Positions 31,407 to 43,045 of a DNA stretch of 64,000 nucleotides are shown piece after piece. The position numbers and the translations under genes were made by a program. Origin of the DNA: Ornithinimicrobium ciconiae (GTDB lineage Bacteria; Actinomycetota; Actinomycetes; Actinomycetales; Dermatophilaceae); NCBI RefSeq assembly GCF_007197575.1, contig NZ_CP041616.1, forward strand, positions 496,001 to 560,000, written 5' to 3'. The notes below the pieces were generated by a model, which did not search any database, was not told where the DNA came from, and saw only the letters and a list, made by a program, of their open reading frames with translations. Numbering within the stretch: position 1 is the first letter of the stretch; each line of letters begins with the position of its first letter.

Positions 31407-31862
31407 ATGACACCACCGAGGATCCGGGGCACCTCGGTCTCGATCAGCACTCCGGCACCGCGGGCACTCGCCGAGTTCTATGCCCGGCTGCTGGACCTCG
31501 AGATCACGGTCGCCGAAGGCGCTCGCGAGGGCGAGCCGGTTGACGCGGGCTGGGCGCAGATCCGACCCGTCGAGGGCCGTCTGGACATGACTCTCAACTT
31601 CGAGTGGGACGAGCACTACGTTCCACCGGCGTGGCCGACCCCCGCCCCCAGCCACCTGGGTTGGCCCTCGGTCTCTGGAGAGGTCTCCGCCGGGCCCGCA
31701 CCACAGCAGGTCATGGCTCACCTCGACCTGTGGGCCGAGGACCTCTCGGCGTCCGTGGCCTGGGCGATCGAGTGCGGTGCCACCGAGCATCCGCACCAGC
31801 CCCAGGAGAACGTGCGGGTCATGGTGGATCCGCACGGCCACCCGTTCTGCCTGTTCACCTGA
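31407..31862 (+). CDS. VOC (glyoxalase/dioxygenase) family protein
   Basis: The 151-residue protein fits the paired beta-alpha-beta-beta-beta fold of the vicinal-oxygen-chelate family. The first half is VSISTPAPRALAEFYARLLD...WAQIRP and the second half is MAHLDLWAEDLSASVAWAIE, closing with VMVDPHGHPFCLF. Metal ligands typical of active members may be present (His in AHLDLW, and residues in the last strand), but I cannot confirm a full set. The function could be a glyoxalase, dioxygenase or drug-binding protein. GAGGAG precedes the ATG. Confidence 0.85.
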   Translation: MTPPRIRGTSVSISTPAPRALAEFYARLLDLEITVAEGAREGEPVDAGWAQIRPVEGRLDMTLNFEWDEHYVPPAWPTPAPSHLGWPSVSGEVSAGPAPQQVMAHLDLWAEDLSASVAWAIECGATEHPHQPQENVRVMVDPHGHPFCLFT

Positions 31863-31953
31863 GTGGGGCCGGCGCTGTGCCTCGTCGTGGTACACGGGGC
31901 CACCGCAGCATCATTTACCATTTCTTGAGCAAACATTCGGGAAAGGGACAGGA

Positions 31954-33198
31954 TTGTCAAGCCTTCTCGCCAAGATCGCCATTGGCGTTTTATCCGTCGG
32001 AGTCGTGACAACCGGAGCCGTGCACGTGCTGGGGGGACCAACCGAGGCAACGGCCGGGGGTTCTCTGGCAGCTTCGGTGGTCAAGGTGGTGGACGGGGAC
32101 ACCCTCGACGTGCGGTATGGCGGTGAGGTCCACCGAGTCCGCCTGCTGAATGTTGATGCGCCGGAGAGCAAGGATCCGAATCGGCCAGTCGAGTGTCTGG
32201 GGCAGGCAGCCTCGGAGTTCCTTGCTGATCAACTCCCTGTGGGCAGGGACGTCACCCTCGAGTTTGACGTCGACCTCGTCGACCCGTACGACCGTGTCCT
32301 GGCGGGGGTCTTCAAGGATGACGTCCTGATCAATGCCGAGATCGCACGTGCGGGGCTGGGCGTGCCGGTGTACTTCGCACCCAACAAGCAGTTCCTGTCG
32401 CAGGTCGAGAGCGCGCATGCCGAAGCAGAAAGCCACCAGCTCGGTCTGTATGACCCGGCCGCGGAGTGTTCGATTCCCGCACAGCTGGAACAACTGCGGA
32501 CCGCGCAGGACCAACTGGCACAGGCGACTCCTGCCGAGGATGCTTCCGCTGCGGAGATCGCGGCCTTCCTTGAGCAGATTGAGCGGGAGCAGAGTGGCGC
32601 GGCTGCCTTGCTGTTGCTTCTCGGAGGCGACTCGAGCGTTGTCCCGCTCGCGGGGTACACCGCGGACGACATCGCGGAGATGAGCTCGACGGTGCATGGC
32701 ATCGACGCCACCCTCACGACGACCCATGCCGCGTGGAGCGACAAGCATGACCAGGCCGTGTCGAGGGAGGCGGCGATCGCAGAACGCAAGGTCGAGGAAC
32801 AGAAGCGCGCCGACGAAGCGGCTCAGCGTGCGGCTGAGGAGAAGGCCGAGCGTGCGGCTGAGGAGAAGGCCGAGCGTGAGGCCGAGGAAAAGGTGCAACG
32901 CGAGGCGGAGGCGGCGGCTCAACGTGAGGCCGAGGAGAAGTCCCAGCGGGAAGAGGAGCAGCGCCGCCAGGCAGAGGAAGAGGCTAGGCGTCAGCCTCCC
33001 GCTCCTGCTCCGGCTCCTGCTCCAGCCCCGGCTCCAGCTCCTCCGCCTGCCCCGGCTCCTCCGCCTGCTCCTGCTCCGGACCGCCCCGGCGCTGGCTATA
33101 CCGGCTGCCGCGACTACAGCAAGCCCGGACCCTACTTTGACGACAAGGGCCGGGGATACATGCCGATCGACTGCAAGACGAAGGCTCCGCTCGCCTAG
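31954..33198 (+). CDS. Secreted thermonuclease-family protein with coiled coil and Pro-rich tail
   Basis: The 414-residue exported protein starts with a hydrophobic signal segment (LAKIAIGVLSVGVVTTGAVHV). A staphylococcal-nuclease domain follows (about residues 45-170). Its motifs VKVVDGDTLDV, RVRLLNVDAPES and DPYDRVLAGVF carry the expected acidic and Arg catalytic positions. Next comes a linker, then a charged coiled coil (about 275-350, repeated AEEKAERE-like), a Pro-Ala run, and a short C-terminal Cys-containing module (TGCRDYSKPGPYFDDKG...IDCKTK). I chose a TTG start because AAAGGGACAGGA lies directly upstream and the homologous signal begins there; upstream residues in the frame are antisense-like. 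The leader DNA is unusually AT-rich, hinting at transfer. Confidence 0.8.
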   Translation: MSSLLAKIAIGVLSVGVVTTGAVHVLGGPTEATAGGSLAASVVKVVDGDTLDVRYGGEVHRVRLLNVDAPESKDPNRPVECLGQAASEFLADQLPVGRDVTLEFDVDLVDPYDRVLAGVFKDDVLINAEIARAGLGVPVYFAPNKQFLSQVESAHAEAESHQLGLYDPAAECSIPAQLEQLRTAQDQLAQATPAEDASAAEIAAFLEQIEREQSGAAALLLLLGGDSSVVPLAGYTADDIAEMSSTVHGIDATLTTTHAAWSDKHDQAVSREAAIAERKVEEQKRADEAAQRAAEEKAERAAEEKAEREAEEKVQREAEAAAQREAEEKSQREEEQRRQAEEEARRQPPAPAPAPAPAPAPAPPPAPAPPPAPAPDRPGAGYTGCRDYSKPGPYFDDKGRGYMPIDCKTKAPLA

Positions 33199-33235: not shown

Positions 33236-34882
33236 TCATGGGAACGCGCCGAGTTGCGGGACGAGATCGGTCGAGGCTCGGAAACGGTGGTTGCGCTGCC
33301 AGACGCCTTCGGTGTGTTCGGGGTGCGCAAACTCCGGGAGCCCGTCGCCAGGGTGCAGGCGCACACTCCACCCCTGGTCGTGGACCGCGTGGTGGTGGAA
33401 GAAGCAGAGCAGGACGCCGTTGCCCAGGTTGGTGGCGCCACCGGCGGACCAGCTGAGCAGGTGATGCGCGTCGCACCACTGCGGAGGCCGGTCGCAGCTG
33501 GGAAAGGCGCATCCGTGATCCCGTTGGGCCAGGATCCTGCGTTGCTCCTTGGTGAAGAGTCGCTTGGCCGTCCCCTGATCCAGCGGGACTGATCGTCCGT
33601 TGAAGACCTGCGGGATCAGCTGCTGTGTGCACGCCAGGCGGCGGATCTGACCCGCCGACACCCGTAGGCCATCGGTCAGGGTCCCGGCCACTTCCGCACA
33701 CTCCTTGGCGAGGTGCTCGTAGGCGAAGGTGATGGCCAGCGACACCGGAGCACCGCCGGCCTGGGCGAACCCATCCGTGGGGAAGTGCTCGATGAGGCCG
33801 CACAGGGCCCGCCCCAGCTGGTTCGGGTAGGGCGTCATCTCCTCCGGCGTGGTCGGTGGCGGCGCGGTCCCCGCAGCCCTGGCACCGCCCGCGGTTCCGG
33901 CAGCCCTGGCACCGCCCGCGGTTCCGGCAGCCCTGGCACCGCCTGCGGTCCCGTCGCCGGAGTTGTGGTCGTTGCACCCGCTCAGTCCTTCGCCATCCGT
34001 GTCTGTGTCAGCGGCCTGGGACGTGGCCAGGTGCTTGCGACGCGGGGACACCAGCGCATCGAGGATCGCGCGGAGCTGGTGGGCCTGGAGGTCGGGCATG
34101 ATCCCGTTGAACCCGTGGGTGCCGTCCTTGCGGTCCCACAGCGAGAAGGAGGTCTTCTCCCACGCGGACTTCTCCTGTCGCTCCGTCTCGCGGTCCTCGT
34201 CCTCGTCCGACTCAGGGTCCGGCCGCACGTCTTGGAGGGCCCGCTTGCTGCGCAGGCGCAGGTTACGCAGCGACAGTTTCGCTGCCTCGGCGAGCAGCTT
34301 CTGCTCCACCTGTGCCCGCTCCTGCTCCGTGAGGTGCTTGGGCAGGGCAGCCACGGTGCGGCCGATGATCTTGGCCTGGTCGTGGCTGATGTCTCCTGCA
34401 CCGAGAGCGCTTTCGGTCGCGGAGGCACCGGAGTCCTCCAGCATCCCGGCGGTCCTGACCAGGTCCTCGGCCGTGCGACGGTCACCACCGAAGTCGTTGG
34501 CCATCAGCTGTCCGGTGGAGGTTGCTCCGGCCTGACGGGCGGTCCCCACCCGCTCCATAGACCGGGCGGCGGCGATGTGATGAGCAGAGAGCCGGGCGGA
34601 CAACCGCGCGATCCGTCGGGTAAGTCCCCGAAGTGAGGCGTCAGGGACGTCCTGCCATAGCGTCGGATCAACCGCATCCAGCGCCCCCTCGACCGCGGTC
34701 AACGCAGCCGCGATGGGGTGTTCTGTGGGGTTGTGGATGGGATATTCGGTGGGCTTGCCGATGGGGTGTTCCATGGGCTTGGCAGCGGCGGGATCCGAGT
34801 GGGAGGAGGCCTGGTTGGTGCCGTCGTCGACCGCCCACTCCGGCGGCTGTCCGCTCGGCTGTGCCCAACCCTGGATTGCCAT
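33236..34882 (-). CDS. DUF222/HNH endonuclease-domain protein (13E12-type)
   Basis: The 548-residue protein belongs to the multi-copy DUF222 plus HNH family of actinobacteria, linked to mobile DNA of unknown mechanism. DUF222 spans roughly residues 60-400. The HNH domain is near 440-500, with CAFPSCDRPPQWCDAHHLL and the second half NLGNGVLLCFFHHHAVH giving the Cys/His zinc and catalytic residues. Internal repeats include HPIGKPTEYPIHNPTEHPI and three copies of TAGGARAAG, the latter encoded by a 27-bp tandem repeat. The ATG at 34882 follows GGAGGGGGA. I see no flanking inverted repeats that would define an element. Confidence 0.9.
   Translation of the reverse strand: MAIQGWAQPSGQPPEWAVDDGTNQASSHSDPAAAKPMEHPIGKPTEYPIHNPTEHPIAAALTAVEGALDAVDPTLWQDVPDASLRGLTRRIARLSARLSAHHIAAARSMERVGTARQAGATSTGQLMANDFGGDRRTAEDLVRTAGMLEDSGASATESALGAGDISHDQAKIIGRTVAALPKHLTEQERAQVEQKLLAEAAKLSLRNLRLRSKRALQDVRPDPESDEDEDRETERQEKSAWEKTSFSLWDRKDGTHGFNGIMPDLQAHQLRAILDALVSPRRKHLATSQAADTDTDGEGLSGCNDHNSGDGTAGGARAAGTAGGARAAGTAGGARAAGTAPPPTTPEEMTPYPNQLGRALCGLIEHFPTDGFAQAGGAPVSLAITFAYEHLAKECAEVAGTLTDGLRVSAGQIRRLACTQQLIPQVFNGRSVPLDQGTAKRLFTKEQRRILAQRDHGCAFPSCDRPPQWCDAHHLLSWSAGGATNLGNGVLLCFFHHHAVHDQGWSVRLHPGDGLPEFAHPEHTEGVWQRNHRFRASTDLVPQLGAFP
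33861..33952. repeat. 27-bp tandem repeat inside the DUF222/HNH gene
   Basis: Two full 27-bp units (33881-33907 and 33908-33934), flanked by partial copies, encode the TAGGARAAG repeat in frame. They lie in a linker between DUF222 segments, so copy number could vary without breaking the protein. Confidence 0.85.
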
Positions 34883-35046
34883 GGCTCCCCCTCCCACTCG
34901 GTTGCCTCGACACTAGGAACACCCGGCCTGGCGCCCAACGCCTCACGAGGATCTGTGGACAGGGATGACTGCCCCAGGCAGGCTGTGGACGGAGCCAGAG
35001 ATGGATGACATGCCGGGAGCGGCGACAGGTGGGCGAAAGGAGACAG

Positions 35047-35634
35047 GTGGGCGAAGGACCCGTGCAACTGCACGCACCAGAGGATGTCCCCCGCGCCTTC
35101 GCAGAGGCGTGGAACCGCGGTGACGCCGACAGCATCGCTGCCCTGTTTGCGGCAGACGCCGACTTCGTCAACGTCGTCGGCTTCTGGTGGACCAGGCGCG
35201 AACAGATCCGGCACAACCACGCGTATGGCTTCGAGAAGATCTTCGCCGGCAGCACCATGACCCTCGACCGGGTGCGGGTGCGCGACCTGGAGGACACCGC
35301 GGTGGTGCACGCCCGCTGGCGGGTCGCTGGACAGAGCAGGCCCGCGGGCGACGGGCGTGAGGCGCCAGCAGGCACTGCGGGTCGTATGCCGACGGGTGAC
35401 CTCGGAGGAGAACCGGTGCCGAGGCAGGAGCAACCAGGTGAGCGTCGGGGCATCTTCACCTTCGTCGTTCACCGCCAGGAGGACGGGCGGTGGCTCACCG
35501 TCGCAGCACAGAACACCGACATCATCCCCGGTGCGCAGACGCTGCTGGACGACGGCTCCGGGCTACACCCGGCGCACTACGAGCGACGCCCGGCGCACTA
35601 CGAGCCGATGCGGACGGAACCGGGCACCGGCTGA
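35047..35634 (+). CDS. SnoaL/SgcJ-like (nuclear transport factor 2 fold) protein
   Basis: The 195-residue cytoplasmic protein carries the SgcJ/EcaC-type SnoaL-like pattern EDVPRAFAEAWNRGDADSIAALFAADADFVNV. It is followed by WTRREQIRHNH, and after a low-complexity insertion by FTFVVHRQEDGRWLTVAAQNTDI. The insertion (about residues 100-140) and the tail with a duplicated PAHYE are unusual. Family members are small-molecule isomerases, hydratases or binding proteins. I chose GTG 35047 because AAAGGAG lies 4 nt upstream; GTG 35062 is possible, since the ribosome-site region itself is duplicated. The ligase gene follows 17 bp later. Confidence 0.78.
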   Translation: MGEGPVQLHAPEDVPRAFAEAWNRGDADSIAALFAADADFVNVVGFWWTRREQIRHNHAYGFEKIFAGSTMTLDRVRVRDLEDTAVVHARWRVAGQSRPAGDGREAPAGTAGRMPTGDLGGEPVPRQEQPGERRGIFTFVVHRQEDGRWLTVAAQNTDIIPGAQTLLDDGSGLHPAHYERRPAHYEPMRTEPGTG

Positions 35635-35651
35635 GTCGCGTCGGAGGAGGC

Positions 35652-37283
35652 ATGGACCGGCATACTCACGGCATGGCACGGCAGCGAGCGGGGCAGACCA
35701 TCTATGACGTCGGCGAACGGGTGTGGACGAGCAGGCCACTGAAGGTGGTGCGCCGCACCGCGCTCCGCGCGAGCACCGGCGTGCTGACCCAGGGATACAG
35801 CCTCTACAAGGTGCACCCGGCGATGTGGCGGCTCACGGCGACCCACTACCGGCCGTGGATGGGTGACTTCGCCCGCTGGCACGCCTGGATGACCTGCCAG
35901 CTCGGCTCTCTGCACGTGCCGGCCTACCAGCAATTCCTCAAGGAGCGCGACTGGAGCTTCACGTGGTGGGACCTGACGAACTACCCACCGACCAGCAAGG
36001 ACAACTACGTCACCCGCTACGGCGAGGAGGCGCGCTGCTGGCACGGTGAGATGGACCTGCGCGGGACCCTGGTCGACGAGTCCTCCGGCTCCTCGGGCCG
36101 GCCCTTCAACTGGGTGCGTGGCCGCGAGGAACTGGCCGACATCCACCGCAACGTCGCCGGCTTCACCTCGCTGATGATGAAGGACGAGCCGCGCCTGTTC
36201 GTCATCAACGCCTACTCGATGGGCGCCTGGGCGACCGGAACCAACACCGGCATCGCGATGGCCAAGATCGCGATGGTCAAGAACACCGGACCGGACCTGG
36301 ACAAGATCGTCGACACCATCAACCACTTCGGGCCCGGCTTCACCTACCTGATCACCGCCTACCCGCCCTTCCTGAAGGACCTGCGCGACCGGCTCGACGC
36401 CGACGGCTTCGACTGGGACCAGCACCGGATGCACGGGCTAGTCGGCGGCGAGGGGATGACCGAGGCGCTGCGTGACTACTGCGAGGAGCGCTTCCTGACC
36501 GTCCGTTCCGGCTACGGCGCCTCCGACCTGACCATCGGTATCGGCGGGGAGACCGAGCTCACCGTGTGGCTGCGCCGCCAGCTCCTGCAGGACCACGAGC
36601 TGCGCGAGGTGGTGCTCGGGCCGGACGAGTCACGCACCCCGATGATCTTCCAGTACAACCCGCTCGAGACCTACCTCGAGATCACCGACGAGGGCGAGAT
36701 CCTCTGCACCCTGACCTCGACGTCGGTGCTCAGCCCTAAGTTGCGTTACAACATCTCAGATGAGGGGGTGATCCTCGACTGGCACGATCTCGCCGCAATC
36801 CTGCGCACCCGTCCCGAGTGGCAGAGCGCCGCACGCCAGGCCTGGCAGGCGCAGGGGATGAAGTTGCCGCTGTTGCTCCTCTTCGGCCGCAAGGACGCCA
36901 CGATCTCGTTCATGGGCGCCAACATCTATCCCCAGGACGTCGAGAACGGGCTGTATGCCGACTCCTCCCGAGCCGCGCAGCTCGCCTCCTTCACGCTCAC
37001 CCTGGAGGAGCGGGACGGCGGCACCGCCAGTCAGCCCGTGGTCCACCTGGAGCTGCGCGAGGAGGTGCACCCGTCCGAGCACGAGCGCGCCGCACTGGCC
37101 ACCGACGCCCAGCAGGGGATCGTCGGCTATCTGGCCAGGGTGAGCCGTGACTTCGCCCAGTCCCTGGAGGAGTCCGCGCGCACCGGCGACATCGAGGTGC
37201 GCGTCCACGACCACGGCACGGGACCCTTCGAGGTCGAGAACACCACGCTCAAGCGGGTCTACCTGCGCAAGGATCAGGCATGA
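35652..37283 (+). CDS. PaaK/CapK-like adenylate-forming ligase
   Basis: The 543-residue cytoplasmic enzyme of the ANL superfamily activates a carboxylate as an acyl-adenylate. The phosphate-binding loop is TLVDESSGSSGRPFNW, the adenine-binding turn is SGYGASDLTIGIGGE, the hinge region is LLFGRKDATISFMGANIYPQDVEN, and a late Lys in NTTLKRVYLRK can serve as catalytic lysine. The sequence is nearer the PaaK/CapK/F390-synthetase branch than fatty-acyl ligases. The N-terminus (residues 1-100) is Trp- and Tyr-rich. GGAGGAGG precedes the ATG. The stop overlaps the next start (ATGA). Substrate and acceptor are unknown. The operon context (two barrel proteins, a GNAT and a nitroreductase) suggests biosynthesis rather than phenylacetate catabolism. 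Confidence 0.85.
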   Translation: MDRHTHGMARQRAGQTIYDVGERVWTSRPLKVVRRTALRASTGVLTQGYSLYKVHPAMWRLTATHYRPWMGDFARWHAWMTCQLGSLHVPAYQQFLKERDWSFTWWDLTNYPPTSKDNYVTRYGEEARCWHGEMDLRGTLVDESSGSSGRPFNWVRGREELADIHRNVAGFTSLMMKDEPRLFVINAYSMGAWATGTNTGIAMAKIAMVKNTGPDLDKIVDTINHFGPGFTYLITAYPPFLKDLRDRLDADGFDWDQHRMHGLVGGEGMTEALRDYCEERFLTVRSGYGASDLTIGIGGETELTVWLRRQLLQDHELREVVLGPDESRTPMIFQYNPLETYLEITDEGEILCTLTSTSVLSPKLRYNISDEGVILDWHDLAAILRTRPEWQSAARQAWQAQGMKLPLLLLFGRKDATISFMGANIYPQDVENGLYADSSRAAQLASFTLTLEERDGGTASQPVVHLELREEVHPSEHERAALATDAQQGIVGYLARVSRDFAQSLEESARTGDIEVRVHDHGTGPFEVENTTLKRVYLRKDQA

Positions 37284-37633
37284 GGATGCCGAGGGTCGGC
37301 CACGCCGGTGCGGTCTTCGTCGGTGCCACCCGCTACACCGGGCCGCTGGCCTGGCTGCGACTGGCGCCCGGGTGGGTCCGGATGGTGCGGCAGATGAAGA
37401 CGATGCCCGGCTACGTCTATCACCGGGTCTACTACGAGCCGCCGTTCAGCCTGGGCACCCTCGGCTTCTTCGAGACCCAGGACGACCTGATGCGCTTCGC
37501 CCGGACCGGTCAGCACCGCGAGCTCATGCAGTGGGTGGTGGGCGAGCGCAACGCCACGGGTGGCTACATCCGGGTCTTCCACGCCACGGCGCCGCGCACC
37601 GGCGAAGCACCGCCAGCAGAGGGGGAACGATGA
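37280..37633 (+). CDS. Small alpha/beta-barrel-like protein, paralogue 1
   Basis: No named family is certain. The 117-residue protein has the look of a dimeric alpha/beta-barrel monooxygenase-like fold (DUF4188/CrtA-like by pattern). A first strand (GAVFVGATRYTGPLAWLR) is followed by a helix (VRMVRQMKTMPGYVYHRV), strands (PPFSLGTLGFFETQDDL) and a last helix (MRFARTGQHRELMQWVVGE). It is clearly paralogous to the next gene. Translation is coupled on both sides through ATGA overlaps, with the ligase upstream and its paralogue downstream. A role as the small subunit of an oxygenase or a ligand-binding partner is inference. Confidence 0.75.
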   Translation: MRMPRVGHAGAVFVGATRYTGPLAWLRLAPGWVRMVRQMKTMPGYVYHRVYYEPPFSLGTLGFFETQDDLMRFARTGQHRELMQWVVGERNATGGYIRVFHATAPRTGEAPPAEGER

Positions 37634-38109
37634 GGACGCAGGACTTCAGCAGGGCGCCGGACATCGCCCAGGCGGGCGTGATGTTCGTCGGAGGCACCCG
37701 CTACACCAGACCCGTCGCCTGGCTGCGGCACGCCGGGCGCTACCGGACGATGATCAGCGAGATGAAGCGGATGCGGGGCTACCGGGGCCACCGCACTTAC
37801 TGGCAGCCACCGTTCACGCTGGGCACCATCGCCTGGTTCGACACCATGGACGACCTGATGCGCTTCGCCCGCACCGGCACGCACCGGGAGTTGATGGCGT
37901 GGGTCACCGACGGCTCCCGCAACGCGATAGGTGGGTGGATCCGGGTCTACACCGCCGCCCCGCACGGCTATACCAATGGCGTGTGGCGGGCGGAGGGCAA
38001 CGTCATGCAGAACATCGAGACGTTCACCCCGATCGGCATGGAGGAGGTCGGTCCGCCTGTCGTCCGGGTCAAGCGGGACCGGGAGACCGGTGACAACGCC
38101 ACCGGGTGA
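37630..38109 (+). CDS. Small alpha/beta-barrel-like protein, paralogue 2
   Basis: The 159-residue protein is a paralogue of the preceding one and shares VGxTRYTxPxAWLR, MKxMxGYxxHRxY, PPFxLGT, DDLMRFARTGxHRELMxWV and RNAxGGxIRV. It differs by an N-terminal extension and by about 45 extra C-terminal residues (IETFTPIGMEEVGPPVVRVK), so the two are not redundant copies and may form a heterodimer. The ATG overlaps the upstream stop (ATGA), and the next gene starts inside its last 20 bp. Conserved His, Tyr and Arg residues could bind heme or substrate, but this is speculative. Confidence 0.75.
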   Translation: MRTQDFSRAPDIAQAGVMFVGGTRYTRPVAWLRHAGRYRTMISEMKRMRGYRGHRTYWQPPFTLGTIAWFDTMDDLMRFARTGTHRELMAWVTDGSRNAIGGWIRVYTAAPHGYTNGVWRAEGNVMQNIETFTPIGMEEVGPPVVRVKRDRETGDNATG

Positions 38110-39229
38110 GGCCGGTGGCGTCACCGTGACACCGGTCTCCACCGATGCCGACGTGCAGGAGTTCATCGACCTGCCGCTGCGGCTGCACCCACAGGACCGC
38201 TACGTCCCCCTGTGGCAGGACACCATCCGCCGCTGGTGGAAGGGCGAGGGACCCCACACCGCGCACGGGCCCGTCGAACTCGTGCTCGCCCGCGACGCCC
38301 ACGGCTCGGTGGTCGGTCGCAGCACCGTCCACACGGACCAGCGGATGGACACCAAGCTCGGCGCCCCCACCCAGCTGCTGGGTGCCACCGAGTTCACCGA
38401 CAGCGACGTGCTCGCCGGCCTCACGGCATACGTCGAGGAGGTCGCGCGGTCTGCCGGCCGGAGCGCGATGCTGGGCCCGGTCTCACTGCTGCCCAACCAG
38501 ACCGGTGGGGTGATCACCTCCGGTTTCGACGAGCGGGGCTTCGTCGACTCGCCGTGGAACCCGCAGCACTATCCCGCAGCCTGGGAGGCCGCCGGGTTCC
38601 AGCCGGTCTGGCCCGCCGCGACCTGGATCTGTGAGGACCTGGCGGCGCACGACCCGGAGCAGGTCTGTGCCCGCGGGGCCGGCCCACTGCCCGACGGGGT
38701 CGAGCTGCACCATGGGCGACGGCGCGGCCTGGCCAGGCAGCTCGGCACCCTCCGCTCGATGCTCAACCCGAGCTTCGCGCAACTGCCCTACTACACGCAG
38801 ATCACCGCCGCGGAGCTGGCAGCCGCCACCGACGGGTTGGCCTGGCTGCTGGACGAGCAGCTGCTGCTGTGGCTCACCGTCGACGGGGAGCCGTCGGCTT
38901 TTGTGCTGGTTGTGCCGGACCTGACCGCGTTCGTGCAGGCCACGGGCGGACGGATGGCGCGGCGCGATCAGGTCCGGTTGCTGCTGACCCGGCGTCGCTA
39001 TCGTCGCGACGCGGTGCTCATCATCAAGGGCACTGTCCCGCACGCGCAGGGGAGAGGCCTGATGTCGATCCTGTCGCACCGGCTCCTGGCCAACCTGCAG
39101 GCCGGTGACTACCGCTCGCTGCGAGTCACCTTCATCGGCGAGGACAACCCGGCCTCGGCAGCACAGTTCGCGGCGCTGGGTGGGCGCCCGCTGCACGGCG
39201 TCACCTTCTATCGCAAGGAGTTGGCGTGA
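38090..39229 (+). CDS. GNAT-like N-acyltransferase
   Basis: The 379-residue cytoplasmic protein ends in an acyl-CoA-binding GNAT domain: IIKGTVPHAQGRGLMSILSHRLLANL with the Q-G-R-G loop, then LRVTFIGEDNPASAAQFAALGG and VTFYRKEL. The first 250 residues look like a second, divergent GNAT copy (TPVSTDADVQEFIDLPLRLH, then TEFTDSDVLAGLTAYVEEVA and AWEAAGFQPV). A tandem-GNAT arrangement is therefore likely. GTG 38090 was chosen for its GGGAGA at 4 nt spacing; GTG 38126 is an alternative. It overlaps the upstream gene by 20 bp and the downstream gene by a GTGA junction. A plausible task is acyl transfer to an amine after activation by the ligase. Confidence 0.78.
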   Translation: MTTPPGEAGGVTVTPVSTDADVQEFIDLPLRLHPQDRYVPLWQDTIRRWWKGEGPHTAHGPVELVLARDAHGSVVGRSTVHTDQRMDTKLGAPTQLLGATEFTDSDVLAGLTAYVEEVARSAGRSAMLGPVSLLPNQTGGVITSGFDERGFVDSPWNPQHYPAAWEAAGFQPVWPAATWICEDLAAHDPEQVCARGAGPLPDGVELHHGRRRGLARQLGTLRSMLNPSFAQLPYYTQITAAELAAATDGLAWLLDEQLLLWLTVDGEPSAFVLVVPDLTAFVQATGGRMARRDQVRLLLTRRRYRRDAVLIIKGTVPHAQGRGLMSILSHRLLANLQAGDYRSLRVTFIGEDNPASAAQFAALGGRPLHGVTFYRKELA

Positions 39230-40323
39230 GCGCAGCTGGGGGGACCGCTGATTCCGGGGCGGGGGTGACTCCCGCCGCGCTGCTGCTCGCGCGGGCAGCC
39301 GACTGGGGCCGGGCTCCCAGCGCGCACAACACCCAGCCGTGGGACGTGCGGACCGATGGTCCCGACACGCTCGTGCTGGGCTGGCACGCCGACCGGGTAC
39401 TCACGATCGGCGACCCGACCCGCAGGGACCTGCTCCTGTCCCTGGGCTGCGTCGCCGAGGCCATCTCCATCGTCGCTGCCGACGAGGGGTATGCCGTGCA
39501 CCCCCGCTGGCAGGTCGACCACGGCCGGGGTCTGGCCGGCCGACTGGAACTGCGAGCGGACGCGGACTCCGGCGGGCGGGCGCCCGCGGCCTTCACGGTG
39601 GCCGAGCTCCTGGCCCGGCGCACTGCTCGCGCGGCCTACGAATCGCCGTTCGTGACACCCGAGCAGGTTGCTGACCTCGCGCGTGAGGCAGGTCGTGCCA
39701 CGGGCCAGCCCGATGGTCTCGGGCCGCGCACGGAGCGGCCTGAGGTGCCGCGCCCGGACCGGCCCGACGACCCCGCCCCGCTCACGGACCTGCTCGTGCT
39801 GCCGCCCGACCTGGTGGAGAGCCAGTTGCGGGAGGCGGACCGTTGGACCTTTGACGGGCCCGCCACCGGTGAGTTGCGAGCGTGGTTGCGACTGGACCAA
39901 CGGGATCCCGCGTATGCCCGCGACGGACTGTCCGACACCGCCCTGGGGCTGGCGTCCTGGGAGCGGATCGGCCTGAACCTCGCCCTGCGTCCCGCGGTGC
40001 TCGGACTGCTGCGTCGCACCAGGCTGACTGCCCTGCTGGGTCGCACCGCCACCGACCGACCGCTGGGGACGGTGGTCGCGCTGACCGCGGCACCCGACCT
40101 GACCGACGAGCAGGTTCTCGACTGCGGCCGGCACCTGCTCCGGGTCTGGCTCGCGGCCGGCAGGGTCGGTCTGTCCGCCCACCCGCTCAGCCAGTTGCTG
40201 GACTGCCCCGGCACCGCCACCGAGGTGAAGGGGGCGGTGGGAGCGGACCGGACGGCATACTCCGTCTTCCGGCTCGGCCAGCCGCGGCACCGGCCGGTGC
40301 GCTCGGCCCGGGTGACCGACTGA
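39226..40323 (+). CDS. Acg-like nitroreductase-family FMN protein
   Basis: The 365-residue protein matches the nitroreductase superfamily in its Acg-like form. The start RAADWGRAPSAHNTQPWDV is the FMN-phosphate-binding motif, and a second half beginning FTVAELLARRTARAAYES repeats the fold within one chain, as in Acg. The C-terminal VGLSAHPLSQLLD is also characteristic. Some Acg proteins bind FMN without reducing nitro compounds, so activity is not assured. The GTG start overlaps the GNAT stop (GTGA). This is the last gene of the coupled run that begins with the SnoaL-like protein. Confidence 0.82.
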   Translation: MSAAGGTADSGAGVTPAALLLARAADWGRAPSAHNTQPWDVRTDGPDTLVLGWHADRVLTIGDPTRRDLLLSLGCVAEAISIVAADEGYAVHPRWQVDHGRGLAGRLELRADADSGGRAPAAFTVAELLARRTARAAYESPFVTPEQVADLAREAGRATGQPDGLGPRTERPEVPRPDRPDDPAPLTDLLVLPPDLVESQLREADRWTFDGPATGELRAWLRLDQRDPAYARDGLSDTALGLASWERIGLNLALRPAVLGLLRRTRLTALLGRTATDRPLGTVVALTAAPDLTDEQVLDCGRHLLRVWLAAGRVGLSAHPLSQLLDCPGTATEVKGAVGADRTAYSVFRLGQPRHRPVRSARVTD

Positions 40324-40369
40324 GCCGTCGGCAGGTGCCGGTCCGAGGTGGCCCCGGGTGATGAGTCGC

Positions 40370-40375
40370 TACAGT
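40370..40375 (+). promoter_or_regulatory. -10 hexamer of a near-leaderless promoter (502-residue membrane protein)
   Basis: TACAGT ends 8 nt before the ATG at 40384, and there is no ribosome-binding site. The downstream membrane protein is therefore probably a separate transcription unit from the preceding operon. Confidence 0.5.
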
Positions 40376-40383
40376 TGCGCGCG

Positions 40384-41892
40384 ATGAGTGACGACGAGAG
40401 CCAGCAGGGAGGAGCCCCGGCCGACCCGCTGCCCGATGGGGACGACGGGGTGTCTTCTGCCGACTCCGGGGGTAGCGACGGGTCCGGAAGTGGCGACGGG
40501 GCGGGGGTGACGAGCGCTTCGCCGGGTCCGGACGCCCCCTTGGGCAGGGACGCCCTGGGCCTGCGTGAGTCCGCTGATCTGCTGCGCGCCACGGCCCTGC
40601 TGCTGGCTCGAAACTGGCTGCCGCTACTGTCCATCGCGGCCCTCAGTCTGCTGGCCCACGAACTGCTGTCCAGGCTCGCGGTGGCCGCCGGTCTCGTGGG
40701 GGCCGTGCCCGGCTTCCTCGCCCTCGCCCTCGTCCCACTCGCGAGCCTGGCCGCCCTGGTGGGCATGCTGCTTGTCGTGCGCAGCCGTGAGGCCCGGCAC
40801 TCCAACCTCTGGGGTGTGGTCGCCGCCGCAGGCAGTGTGCTCGTGCCCTTCCTGGTGGTCTATGAGAGTCGTGGTGACCTGCGGGCCGACCTGATCGACT
40901 ATGTGCGAGGCACCCTGTATGAACAGCTGGGCGCCGAGACGATCATCAGCGCCCTGCCGCAGATCGCCTCCTGGCTCGTGCTGGGCATCGTGGTCGCAGC
41001 CCTGATCGTCCGCGCCGCGGGCACCCGTCTCGTGAGTCAGAGCCGGTGGGCCACGGTGGAGGGCCCCCGCCGCGGCCTGCTGCACGTCGTGCTCGGCTAT
41101 GCCGAGGCGGTCTGGATGACCCTTGGCGCCTGGGTGCTGGCCGGCGTGCTCGGCGGTCTGGCGGCCTGGTGGTCCGCCCGCGCCGTCGTCCAGCAGGTTG
41201 ACGAGATCTGGGAGCGGGTGCGGGTGAACCTGCCCAGCCTGGGTGCCCTGGGTGACTGGATCGTCAGCGTCGTGCCGGTCCTCACGGACGCCGTGGTCAC
41301 CGGACTGGTGGTCCCGATCTCGATGCTCACGATCGCGGTGATCGTCTACGGCCTGCAGATCGCCGACACCGTCAGTCCCGACGAGGTGGTCCGGGCTGTC
41401 AGGAGCGGGCGCTGGACAGCGCTGACCAACCGGGTGGCGGATGCTCCCCTGCGGCAGGCCTGGAACCGGCTCTCGGACACCGAGGGCCGCTTTGGTGCGC
41501 TCGCCGGCGGGCTTGCCCTCGTGCTGCGATCGGCCTTCGCCCCGGTGCTGGCCTATTGCATGCTGTTCACGCTCGTCGCCCAACTGGACGTGGTGGTCTG
41601 GTGGCTGGCCCGGCTCGTGCTCGGCTGGCGCACCGAGTTGGTCTGGGACGCGCTGTATGTGCCGCTCGGCGGCATCTCGGAGATGCTGACCCTGGTGCTG
41701 ACGGTCGCGCTCACCGCGGTCTTCGCGGACCGGCTGCTCATGCGCTTCGGCGCGCGTGGGCAGCTGCGTGGTCGACGCCGGGGTCAGGACGGCAGCGGGA
41801 ACTCGATGAACCTCGCCGGAGGGAACTCGCGCGCGTCCACCCGCACCGAGACCAGCTCGGCGTCGGCCGGGACGAGCACCAGCACCGACTGA
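40384..41892 (+). CDS. Large polytopic membrane protein of unknown function
   Basis: No family is recognised. The 502-residue protein has an acidic Gly/Ser/Asp-rich N-terminus (about 55 residues). Roughly eight TM helices follow, including WLPLLSIAALSLLAHELLS, FLALALVPLASLAALVGMLL, ASWLVLGIVVAALIV, LVVPISMLTIAVIVYGLQIA and SEMLTLVLTVALTAVF. The last ~40 residues are Ser/Thr-rich and lie entirely in a 109-bp overlap with the convergent gene, so they look like translation of antisense DNA rather than evolved protein. A transporter or glycan-lipid handling role is possible but unsupported. Confidence 0.78.
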   Translation: MSDDESQQGGAPADPLPDGDDGVSSADSGGSDGSGSGDGAGVTSASPGPDAPLGRDALGLRESADLLRATALLLARNWLPLLSIAALSLLAHELLSRLAVAAGLVGAVPGFLALALVPLASLAALVGMLLVVRSREARHSNLWGVVAAAGSVLVPFLVVYESRGDLRADLIDYVRGTLYEQLGAETIISALPQIASWLVLGIVVAALIVRAAGTRLVSQSRWATVEGPRRGLLHVVLGYAEAVWMTLGAWVLAGVLGGLAAWWSARAVVQQVDEIWERVRVNLPSLGALGDWIVSVVPVLTDAVVTGLVVPISMLTIAVIVYGLQIADTVSPDEVVRAVRSGRWTALTNRVADAPLRQAWNRLSDTEGRFGALAGGLALVLRSAFAPVLAYCMLFTLVAQLDVVVWWLARLVLGWRTELVWDALYVPLGGISEMLTLVLTVALTAVFADRLLMRFGARGQLRGRRRGQDGSGNSMNLAGGNSRASTRTETSSASAGTSTSTD

Positions 41893-42491
41893 CTCGGCGG
41901 CACCGGATCCTCCTGAGGGTCCGCGGTGCCGCAGGTCAGTGATGAGTCGTAGGGATCGGCATACGGGACCTCCCGGCCGGCCAGGAAGAGCCGGCCCTGG
42001 GTGTCGCGCACCTGCACCTCGCACGTTCGCGGCAGGGTGGGTGCGTCGGGGGCGTCCGGATCGGGCGCGGAGCCGTCCTCTTCAGACGGGGCGGGGTCCG
42101 GGTCGATGGTGAAGTCCAGCGCGAGATAGCGAAAGCCCGGCGGAGGTTGCTCCTCATCGACCTCCGTCAGCGCCTCGGCGTGATCGAACCGCACGCGCAC
42201 GGTGTCGATGTCTGCCCATCCCTGGTCATCCGGCTCGACCGCGACGTGCTGCCCGAAGGTCCACCAGCCCTCGCGCGCCTGCTCGGTCGCGAACCATCCC
42301 CAGCCCGCGAGCGACAGCACCAGACCTGCGGCGGCAGCCAGCGCGGTGGTGTGGCGGCGGGACACGGTCCGGCTGCCCCGACGCGGCTGCTCCTGGGTCT
42401 GCTGCTCCGGTGGCCGCTGCTCGTCGGTCTGCTGCTCGTCGGTCTGCTGCTCGTCGCGCTGGCGTTCGTCGGTCTGCTGCTCGTCGGTCAT
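41784..42491 (-). CDS. Membrane-anchored extracytoplasmic protein (operon gene 3)
   Basis: The 235-residue protein has a repetitive acidic-glutamine N-terminus (repeated TDEQQ units, residues 3-35). A basic stretch and one TM helix (TTALAAAAGLVLSLAGWGWF) follow, then an extracytoplasmic beta-rich domain (WADIDTVRVRFDHAEAL, FRYLALDFTID) with a Cys pair. The domain resembles DUF4352-like immunoglobulin-type modules by pattern, and so do the two genes upstream. ATGA coupling links it to the gene at 42488. Its last 109 bp overlap the convergent membrane-protein gene, but its C-terminus (SVLVLVPADAELVSVRVDAR) looks genuine. Confidence 0.75.
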   Translation of the reverse strand: MTDEQQTDERQRDEQQTDEQQTDEQRPPEQQTQEQPRRGSRTVSRRHTTALAAAAGLVLSLAGWGWFATEQAREGWWTFGQHVAVEPDDQGWADIDTVRVRFDHAEALTEVDEEQPPPGFRYLALDFTIDPDPAPSEEDGSAPDPDAPDAPTLPRTCEVQVRDTQGRLFLAGREVPYADPYDSSLTCGTADPQEDPVPPSQSVLVLVPADAELVSVRVDAREFPPARFIEFPLPS

Positions 42492-43045
42492 CGTTCGCCC
42501 CCGGCCAGCACCCTGGCGCGCTCGAGAGCGAGTGGCTCTGCGGCCGCGCTCACCGTGAGCGGGACCCGCAGGACCGCCGCGGGCCGCTGGATATGAGGTC
42601 GATCGGGCCGGAACTCCAGGGTGAGGTCGTCGGCGGCATCGGCAGGCACCTCGAAGAGCAGGGTGCCGCGCAGCCAGATGTCTGGTCCCGCCTCCCAGGT
42701 CCCCGCGGCCGAGCCGAAGCCGGAGGGCTCAGTGAACTCACGACCGGACCCGTCGATGAGCACCACCTCCTCGGGGGTGTTCCAGGCGTCGGTGCTCGCG
42801 TAGGACAGATCGACCACCACGAAGACTGCCGGGCTGGTCACCACCTCGCCGTCCTCGAGGTCGGGGGACGACGAGGCGCCGTGGACGTGGACCTGGAAGT
42901 TGCCGACCGTGAGGTCGGTGGCCTCCGCGCCGCGCTGCACCGAGTGCCAGCCAGTGGCGAGGAAGTTGTTGTCGATCGCGTTGGCTGCGCCGCCGACGGC
43001 GACGGCAGCCGCGAGCATCCCGGCGACTGCCCACCTGCGCCTCAC
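42488..43045 (-). CDS. Membrane-anchored extracytoplasmic protein (operon gene 2)
   Basis: The 185-residue protein starts with a short basic segment and a signal/TM helix (WAVAGMLAAAVAVGGAANA) and continues with a beta-rich domain: TDLTVGNFQVHVHG, PAVFVVVDLSYAS and WLRGTLLFEVPAD. The sandwich pattern is the same as in its neighbours, consistent with a family of paralogues. The GTG start overlaps the stop of the upstream gene (GTGA), and its own stop overlaps the downstream start (ATGA). Function is unknown; surface or membrane assembly is likely from topology. Confidence 0.75.
   Translation of the reverse strand: MRRRWAVAGMLAAAVAVGGAANAIDNNFLATGWHSVQRGAEATDLTVGNFQVHVHGASSSPDLEDGEVVTSPAVFVVVDLSYASTDAWNTPEEVVLIDGSGREFTEPSGFGSAAGTWEAGPDIWLRGTLLFEVPADAADDLTLEFRPDRPHIQRPAAVLRVPLTVSAAAEPLALERARVLAGGER

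Follow-up and report, generated by a model that had tools for sequence, protein, structure and literature searches.

Gene content of the locus

The window analyzed here is a 64,000-nucleotide stretch of the Ornithinimicrobium ciconiae genome (contig NZ_CP041616.1, positions 496,001 to 560,000 of the forward strand). Our subject is a run of tightly packed genes within it, g1 to g6, of which g2 to g6 form a recurrent cassette encoding an adenylating ligase, two small barrel proteins, a predicted acyltransferase and a flavin-dependent oxidase (FDO). The initial annotation had reported six plus-strand open reading frames (ORFs) with a 17-bp gap between g1 and g2 followed by overlaps of ATGA, ATGA, 20 bp and GTGA, and all of these were found again. 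Together with the gene that follows, they are:

35047..35634, +, g1: SnoaL/DUF4440 gene with a GTG start (an ATG upstream at 35005 is an alternative start); resident, outside the unit
35652..37283, +, g2: PaaK-like ANL ligase, the proposed carboxylate activator/cyclase and first gene of the cassette (weak TIGR02155 match plus motifs)
37280..37633, +, g3: dimeric alpha/beta-barrel (ABM, Monooxy_af470-like), copy 1 (PF13826, 23.3 bits)
37630..38109, +, g4: ABM paralogue, copy 2 (PF13826, 25.3 bits)
38090..39229, +, g5: tandem-GNAT acyltransferase with a GTG start (predicted structure)
39226..40323, +, g6: nitroreductase (NTR)-superfamily flavin-dependent oxidase of a PaaK-linked branch, with a GTG start (Acg-family profile, structure 2ymv and tree)
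40384..41892, +, g7: resident gene at the right flank of the insertion, outside the unit

Family assignments for g1 to g6 agree with those first proposed, with the qualifications that the match of g2 is weak, that g3 and g4 straddle their family cut-off and that g6 lies below its own. The first gene belongs to the DUF4440/SnoaL family (SgcJ/EcaC profile TIGR02246, E = 1.9e-18). A search of 34880-42600 gave no sigma-70-like site. The only terminator-like site, at 38879-38898 within g5, is at chance level, shuffled sequence giving a mean of 0.9. Rfam, tRNA and promoter scans were uninformative.

The unit is a five-gene insertion

The borders of the unit were delineated by comparison with two relatives that have no g2 match, G009 and G019 (the latter genome is 75% complete). 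In both, g7 comes immediately after the SnoaL gene (loci L225 and L227, respectively). Matches to window positions 35077-35575 (or 35551) and 40536 (or 40562) onward lie ~115-210 bp apart there, and homology to the cassette-free relatives restarts at ~40365, just 5′ of the g7 start. Because the SnoaL gene and g7 adjoin each other in cassette-free genomes, g1 and g7 are residents and g2 to g6 are an insertion between them. The unit thus comprises five genes, and the earlier six-gene reading was wrong. No flanking repeats were seen in the aligned junctions.

Within the genus, g2 matches were present in 15 of 31 genomes, in one case as a fragment at the edge of a contig. When 14 loci were compared with the neighbors of the cassette in the window, both flanks were shared by the nearest locus only (L021), where a SnoaL gene also lies upstream of the cassette; locus L023 showed a partial match to the HNH gene on the left flank. 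Among four regions around g7 that were compared, the SnoaL gene is located elsewhere in G007 and the cassette occupies a different site in G012. The g7 gene itself, hydrophobic by eye and with no Pfam or NCBIfam match at E ≤ 1, is present in 9 of the 31 genomes, with 70-82% identity in five besides the window's. Being resident at the empty site, it was ruled out as an operon member.

Recurrence, gene order and fusions

A profile scan of genome contigs with the g2 alignment confirmed 239 relatives. Locus counts refer to the closest 80 of these, the nearer third, all of whose titles name actinobacteria; labeled by hand, they fall into 27 named genera plus two unplaced labels. A set of 84 loci adds L021, L022, L023 and L031 to the 80 (L021 repeats L044, and L023 repeats L039), and a set of 85 adds L022, L031, L223, L115 and L116. 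In the 84-locus set, profile hidden Markov models (HMMs) detected PaaK in 84, ABM in 84, GNAT in 82 and NTR in 84 loci, and a SnoaL protein in 2.

Judged by domain position, 83 of 85 loci have the genes on one strand in the order PaaK-ABM(-ABM)-GNAT-NTR. The order is exact in 80, as PaaK-ABM-GNAT-NTR (58) or PaaK-ABM-ABM-GNAT-NTR (22), and L055, L065 and L074 have the same order with one domain call split or doubled. Streptacidiphilus L103 and L107 depart from it and read PaaK-ABM-NTR, so that PaaK, ABM and NTR share a strand in all 85. Because order and strand recur in this way, g2 to g6 are not a chance run. Of 87 loci, a count in which the two repeated loci are included, 24 have two ABM domains and 63 have one.

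Cassette genes are also fused to one another, in 20 ORFs at 19 loci. ABM-GNAT-NTR fusions account for 6 ORFs at 5 Serinicoccus loci (L023 and L039 being one genome), GNAT-NTR fusions for 7 ORFs in Brevibacterium, Nesterenkonia and one Ornithinimicrobium, and ABM-ABM-GNAT fusions, with the first ABM matched in pieces, for 7 ORFs in Pseudoclavibacter and Microbacterium; none of the 20 contains the ligase. A stricter HMM and length filter gave counts of 10 (GNAT with NTR), 7 (ABM with GNAT) and 2 (triple), and we take the difference to reflect the divergent second ABM of Serinicoccus. These fusions make it plausible that the GNAT product is passed straight to the oxidase. The initial annotation had named loss of gene order outside this strain as grounds for abandoning its proposal; the conserved order and the fused ORFs remove that objection for five of the six families across genera, SnoaL being the one that does not take part.

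Neighbor clustering at the 80 loci mostly yielded apparent artifacts of the core genes themselves, read antisense or in a shifted frame. Non-core neighbors recognized by eye (an ABC-transporter ATPase under 7 genus labels, an alpha/beta-hydrolase-like protein under 5 and a response regulator under 5) have no fixed place, and by this noisy method, which may miss a rarer partner, no conserved extra transporter, regulator, carrier protein or ring-cleavage gene was recognized. Pairwise distance correlations among the cassette proteins (r 0.42-0.77 over 52 loci, lowest for PaaK-ABM) are uncorrected for species history and therefore were not used as proof of cophylogeny. In our reading, g2 to g6 would be a horizontally moving, self-contained cassette.

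A ligase-oxidase core in distant relatives

Relatives of g2 were present in 13 of 396 genomes of a phylum sample, the window's included (E ≤ 1e-5). Eleven of the 12 other loci were examined; the weakest match, in G133, was left out. All four families are present at 2 of the 11, PaaK beside NTR only at 6 and PaaK only at 3; where the ligase adjoins the oxidase in these 6, no ABM or GNAT occurs in the stretch examined. Plasmid matches, at three sites with no annotated features, comprised a full gene set in Nonomuraea, a PaaK fragment only in Streptomyces and, outside Actinomycetota, a PaaK gene with an adjoining NTR gene in Gemmatirosa kalamazoonensis (Gemmatimonadota; L222, 8649-11302), again with neither ABM nor GNAT in the stretch examined. 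From the distant PaaK-NTR pairs, ligase plus oxidase looks like the older pairing, to which barrels and GNAT may have been added in one branch or from which they may have been lost in others. A gene that by eye resembles a short-chain dehydrogenase lies 3′ of one distant pair (L117, 12518-13306).

The ligase retains adenylation motifs

The g2 product matched the phenylacetate-CoA ligase PaaK (TIGR02155; structure 4r1l) at 4.9e-8 and 31.9 bits, far below the curated cut-off of 646.3, and no Pfam family at E ≤ 1. It nevertheless has the ANL fold family and core motifs in common with PaaK. DESSGSSG, GASDL, RY...D and GRxD are invariant in all 10 sequences of alignment A6, distant ones included, and the C-terminal Lys is invariant in the 36-row alignment A2 and present in 8 of the 10 A6 rows, those reaching that far. 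These elements correspond to the P-loop, A5, A7, A8 and the A10 Lys; the first four are invariant in both alignments, which places g2 in the ANL superfamily.

The acyltransferase and the barrels

The g5 protein gave no GNAT match in Pfam and a weak one in NCBIfam. Its predicted structure, at a mean model confidence (pLDDT) of 94.5, consists of two GNAT-fold halves. The best solved folds were the tandem GNAT 2wpw from the clavulanic-acid cluster (1.8e-14, TM-score by query length 0.57) and mycothiol synthase 2c27 (8.2e-12, 0.60); a glucosamine N-acetyltransferase and MAB_4324 were among the other top matches, with moderate TM-scores of ~0.6. Profile relatives of g5 were detected in 23 of the 246 genomes of a phylum sample, and three of these are cassettes. 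Of the other 20, ten were examined, and in 7 of these a gene for a pyridoxal-phosphate enzyme resembling serine palmitoyltransferase adjoins the GNAT gene; serine palmitoyltransferase was the best match, below cut-off, for the three such genes tested. From their gene neighbors, these GNATs are putative relatives of the ceramide synthase bCerS. The homology of the ten to g5 is at profile level and distant (E 1e-38 to 1e-48), and 0 of the 80 named cassette loci has a serine-palmitoyltransferase-like gene within the stretch examined. Caulobacter bCerS acylates a sphingoid base (PMC11087976).

A further tandem-GNAT relative, in another actinobacterium (L178, 7817-9004), lies near an AMP-binding ligase (PF00501) and ORFs that by eye read like a ketosynthase, a carrier protein and a polyketide synthase, perhaps another acyl-transfer cluster.

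Against PF13826 (gathering score 25), g3 scores below the threshold and g4 above it (E 8.4e-5 and 2.1e-5, respectively), and the two are 56% identical (alignment A3). The C-terminal extension of g4 is also found in many single-ABM loci. Through this marginal match the barrels share a family with Fma-ABM (Af470), which, unlike g3 and g4, belongs to a fungal pathway, that of fumagillin.

Relation to acyl-oxazolone pathways

The closest worked-out systems are the tyz and trz acyl-oxazolone pathways, in which an amino acid is N-acylated by TyzA or TrzA, the product is cyclized with ATP by TyzB or by TrzS through its ThiF domain, and TyzC or an FDO domain desaturates it with O2 (PMC10404671, PMC12856293). 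Like the cassette, TyzACB, TrzAS and OxzAB of P. rubra are compact sets of an N-acyltransferase, an adenylating enzyme and an oxidase that uses flavin mononucleotide (FMN), with fusions; stieleriacine-type clusters repeat the trio of acyltransferase, cyclase and oxidase (PMC12479983). The distant PaaK-NTR pairs likewise mirror the pairing of ThiF with FDO in oxazolone pathways (PMC10404671 sections 4 and 5; PMC12856293 section 4). The differences lie in the parts. The adenylating enzyme of the cassette is of ANL/PaaK type rather than ThiF, and an HMM built from 8 TrzS-like ThiF stretches found 0 matches at E ≤ 1e-3 in 96 loci; the acyltransferase is a tandem GNAT, whereas TyzA is described as FeeM/acyl-homoserine-lactone-synthase-like (PMC10404671); ABM barrels are additional; and the oxidase stands on a branch of its own.

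The initial annotation recognized no described pathway of this composition. That holds for the literature searched, although the mechanistic kind was already known: queries on DUF4188 and on the composition returned no description of the gene combination in a survey by titles and opening lines with most subscription journals outside it, and PMC2922099 deals with other systems.

The oxidase forms a separate branch with a mixed signature

A nitroreductase-superfamily oxidase, the type that acts in acyl-oxazolone pathways, was found at 85 of 85 loci. The g6 product matched the Rv3131/Acg family profile NF047509 at 1.2e-36 and 126.8 bits, below the curated cut-off of 199, and structure 2ymv at 2e-18. 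It is the one NTR-profile match in the genome at E ≤ 0.01, where no TrzS-like match was found at E ≤ 1e-20.

A midpoint-rooted tree of 72 oxidases comprised 33 from cassettes (the window and 32 chosen loci), 6 distant ligase-linked proteins, 24 matching the Acg/Rv3131 profile and 9 of the ThiF group (8 ThiF-fused and the stand-alone L145). A 98/92 branch separates all 39 ligase-linked oxidases from the remaining 33. Columns R131 and R135 are conserved throughout. Every cassette protein (33 of 33) has Arg222, as do 5 of 6 distant, 9 of 9 ThiF-group and 4 of 24 Acg-type proteins; for Trp308 the counts are 33 of 33, 6 of 6, 9 of 9 and 2 of 24, respectively. With Acg/Rv3131 FMN oxidoreductases, from which g6 differs in these two columns, its sub-cut-off score and its separate branch, it shares the superfamily, the APSxHNxQPW motif and residues His34 and Trp220. 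The signature is therefore mixed, Arg222 and Trp308 being as in the ThiF group and His34 and Trp220 as in Acg-type enzymes.

Arg222 probably corresponds to TrzS Arg540. In TrzS-like relatives the column is numbered 541 (L126), 538 (L127), 537 (L128), 547 (L131; 540 from the first Met) and 573 (L130), and 766-790 in the long ORFs of L129, L132 and L133; L131 has a Gln 111 residues beyond the Arg, the spacing of Arg540 and Gln651. The alanine variant of Arg540 yields far less tryptazolone, holds little FMN and accumulates the cyclized, undesaturated intermediate (PMC12856293 section 7).

A possible route to an oxidized N-acyl compound

The initial annotation proposed that the enzymes activate an acid, join it to an amine and then carry out redox chemistry. 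This scheme fits the families, has a parallel in tyz and trz, and involves a ligase, barrels, a GNAT and an oxidase that do travel together; the SnoaL protein drops out of it, and nothing was found that points to a cofactor as the product. Our tentative reading is that the cassette makes an oxidized N-acyl compound. The tandem GNAT g5 would first move an acyl group, probably fatty, onto the amine of an amino acid or similar substrate. The ligase g2 would then adenylate the carboxylate of the N-acyl compound, leading to an oxazolone (azlactone) ring or to transfer to another acceptor. N-acyl amino acids activated at the carboxylate tend to close to azlactones. An ANL precedent for cyclization is the beta-lactone synthetase OleC (PMC6594144), and beta-lactone synthetases are named as an ANL clade in PMC8388817. 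The FMN oxidase g6 may desaturate the substrate with O2, and the barrels g3 and g4 might oxygenate or otherwise tailor the product.

A number of observations weigh against this proposal. No GNAT lies near the ligase in Streptacidiphilus L103 and L107 or in the distant PaaK-NTR pairs, and three distant PaaK loci, L123 to L125, have no NTR gene in the stretch examined (L123 with full flanks; L124 is a 5.2-kb contig and L125 lies <3 kb from a contig end). The g6 protein scores 126.8 bits with the Rv3131 profile versus 56.6 with the Rv1355c/TrzS profile, and the midpoint-rooted tree does not put ligase-linked oxidases within the ThiF-linked clade (FDO-A lineage). His34 and Trp220 are present in all cassette, distant and Acg-type oxidases, whereas all nine ThiF-group proteins have Gly and Glu in these columns. 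The equivalence of Arg222 and Arg540 rests on numbering in relatives, and the candidate Gln651 column is never Gln in the 33 cassette oxidases (His 19, Ser 7, Ala 6, Asp 1).

A more specific version, that the cassette is a third, independently evolved class of synthase for acyl-oxazolones or related dehydro-amino-acid lipids, with an ANL ligase replacing ThiF as cyclase, mobile and widespread in Actinomycetota, is unlikely. Were it true of an oxazolone product, ring closure via carboxylate activation would have evolved at least twice, and barrels that oxygenate or cleave the new double bond may lead to a compound class not yet seen. If no oxazolone is made, a conserved, mobile pathway to acyl amides, present in 27 named genera of actinobacteria, would have been overlooked. 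In either case, the cassette connects a separate branch of the oxidases, most of which are uncharacterized, with an acyltransferase and an adenylating enzyme that are both of a different kind. What oxazolones do in bacterial physiology is itself described as a major unresolved question (PMC12856293 section 8). Since acid hydrolyzes the oxazolone and alcohols open the ring (PMC12856293 section 7), acid or methanol extraction could have masked such a product, as the oxazolone papers make clear.

Alternative functions

Nearly as likely as the biosynthetic route above, and likewise no better than possible, is that g2 is an ordinary acyl-CoA/acyl-AMP ligase supplying the GNAT donor, with oxidase and barrels modifying the amide or chain and no ring formed. 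The weak match of g2 to phenylacetate-CoA ligase and the use of acyl-CoA by GNATs are consistent with such a role, as is the oxidative cleavage by which Fma-ABM, the namesake of the barrels, turns prefumagillin into fumagillin (PMC7020470). His34 and Trp220 are common to Acg-type enzymes, which are suspected of desaturating other lipids (PMC10404671 section 11). On the other hand, the match is 31.9 bits against a 646.3-bit PaaK cut-off, and the ligase has the oxidase, but no GNAT, beside it within the stretch examined at 6 of the 11 distant loci and on the Gemmatirosa plasmid, which ties it to the oxidase substrate. Because the distant ligases stay with the oxidase and not with the GNAT, this explanation is somewhat weakened.

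It is improbable that the cassette is a detoxification or catabolic unit conjugating or modifying an aromatic or xenobiotic acid. Such roles are known for PaaK-like ligases, GNATs and nitroreductases alike, and a patchy spread (15 of 31 genomes in the genus, 13 of 396 in the phylum sample) would suit a unit of this sort; against it, the noisy neighbor analysis of the 80 loci recognized no conserved transporter, regulator or ring-cleavage gene, and the nearest characterized units that include an oxidase of this type are biosynthetic. A sphingolipid-like pathway with the GNAT as ceramide synthase, suggested by the serine-palmitoyltransferase-like genes adjoining GNAT relatives in 7 of 10 loci elsewhere, is very improbable and was rejected, as such a gene occurs at 0 of the 80 cassette loci within the stretch examined and g5 is only distantly related to the ten. 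That all six genes including SnoaL form one pathway, as the 17-bp g1-g2 spacing and the upstream SnoaL gene of the nearest relative would suggest, has next to no probability, for only two of the 84 loci, which are copies of one genome, have this gene at the unit, and the empty site in G009 and G019, where it adjoins g7, rules it out as a pathway member.

Genes on the left flank

In the window and in L021, the left neighbor of the SnoaL gene encodes a DUF222/HNH endonuclease-type protein (33236-34897, minus strand; PF02720, 2.5e-15). The gene is absent between the matching flanks in the cassette-free loci L225 and L227, so that it, like the cassette, seems to be gained and lost. The ORF at 31777-33198 (plus strand) has what looks like a thermonuclease-like stretch, with a proline-rich tail.

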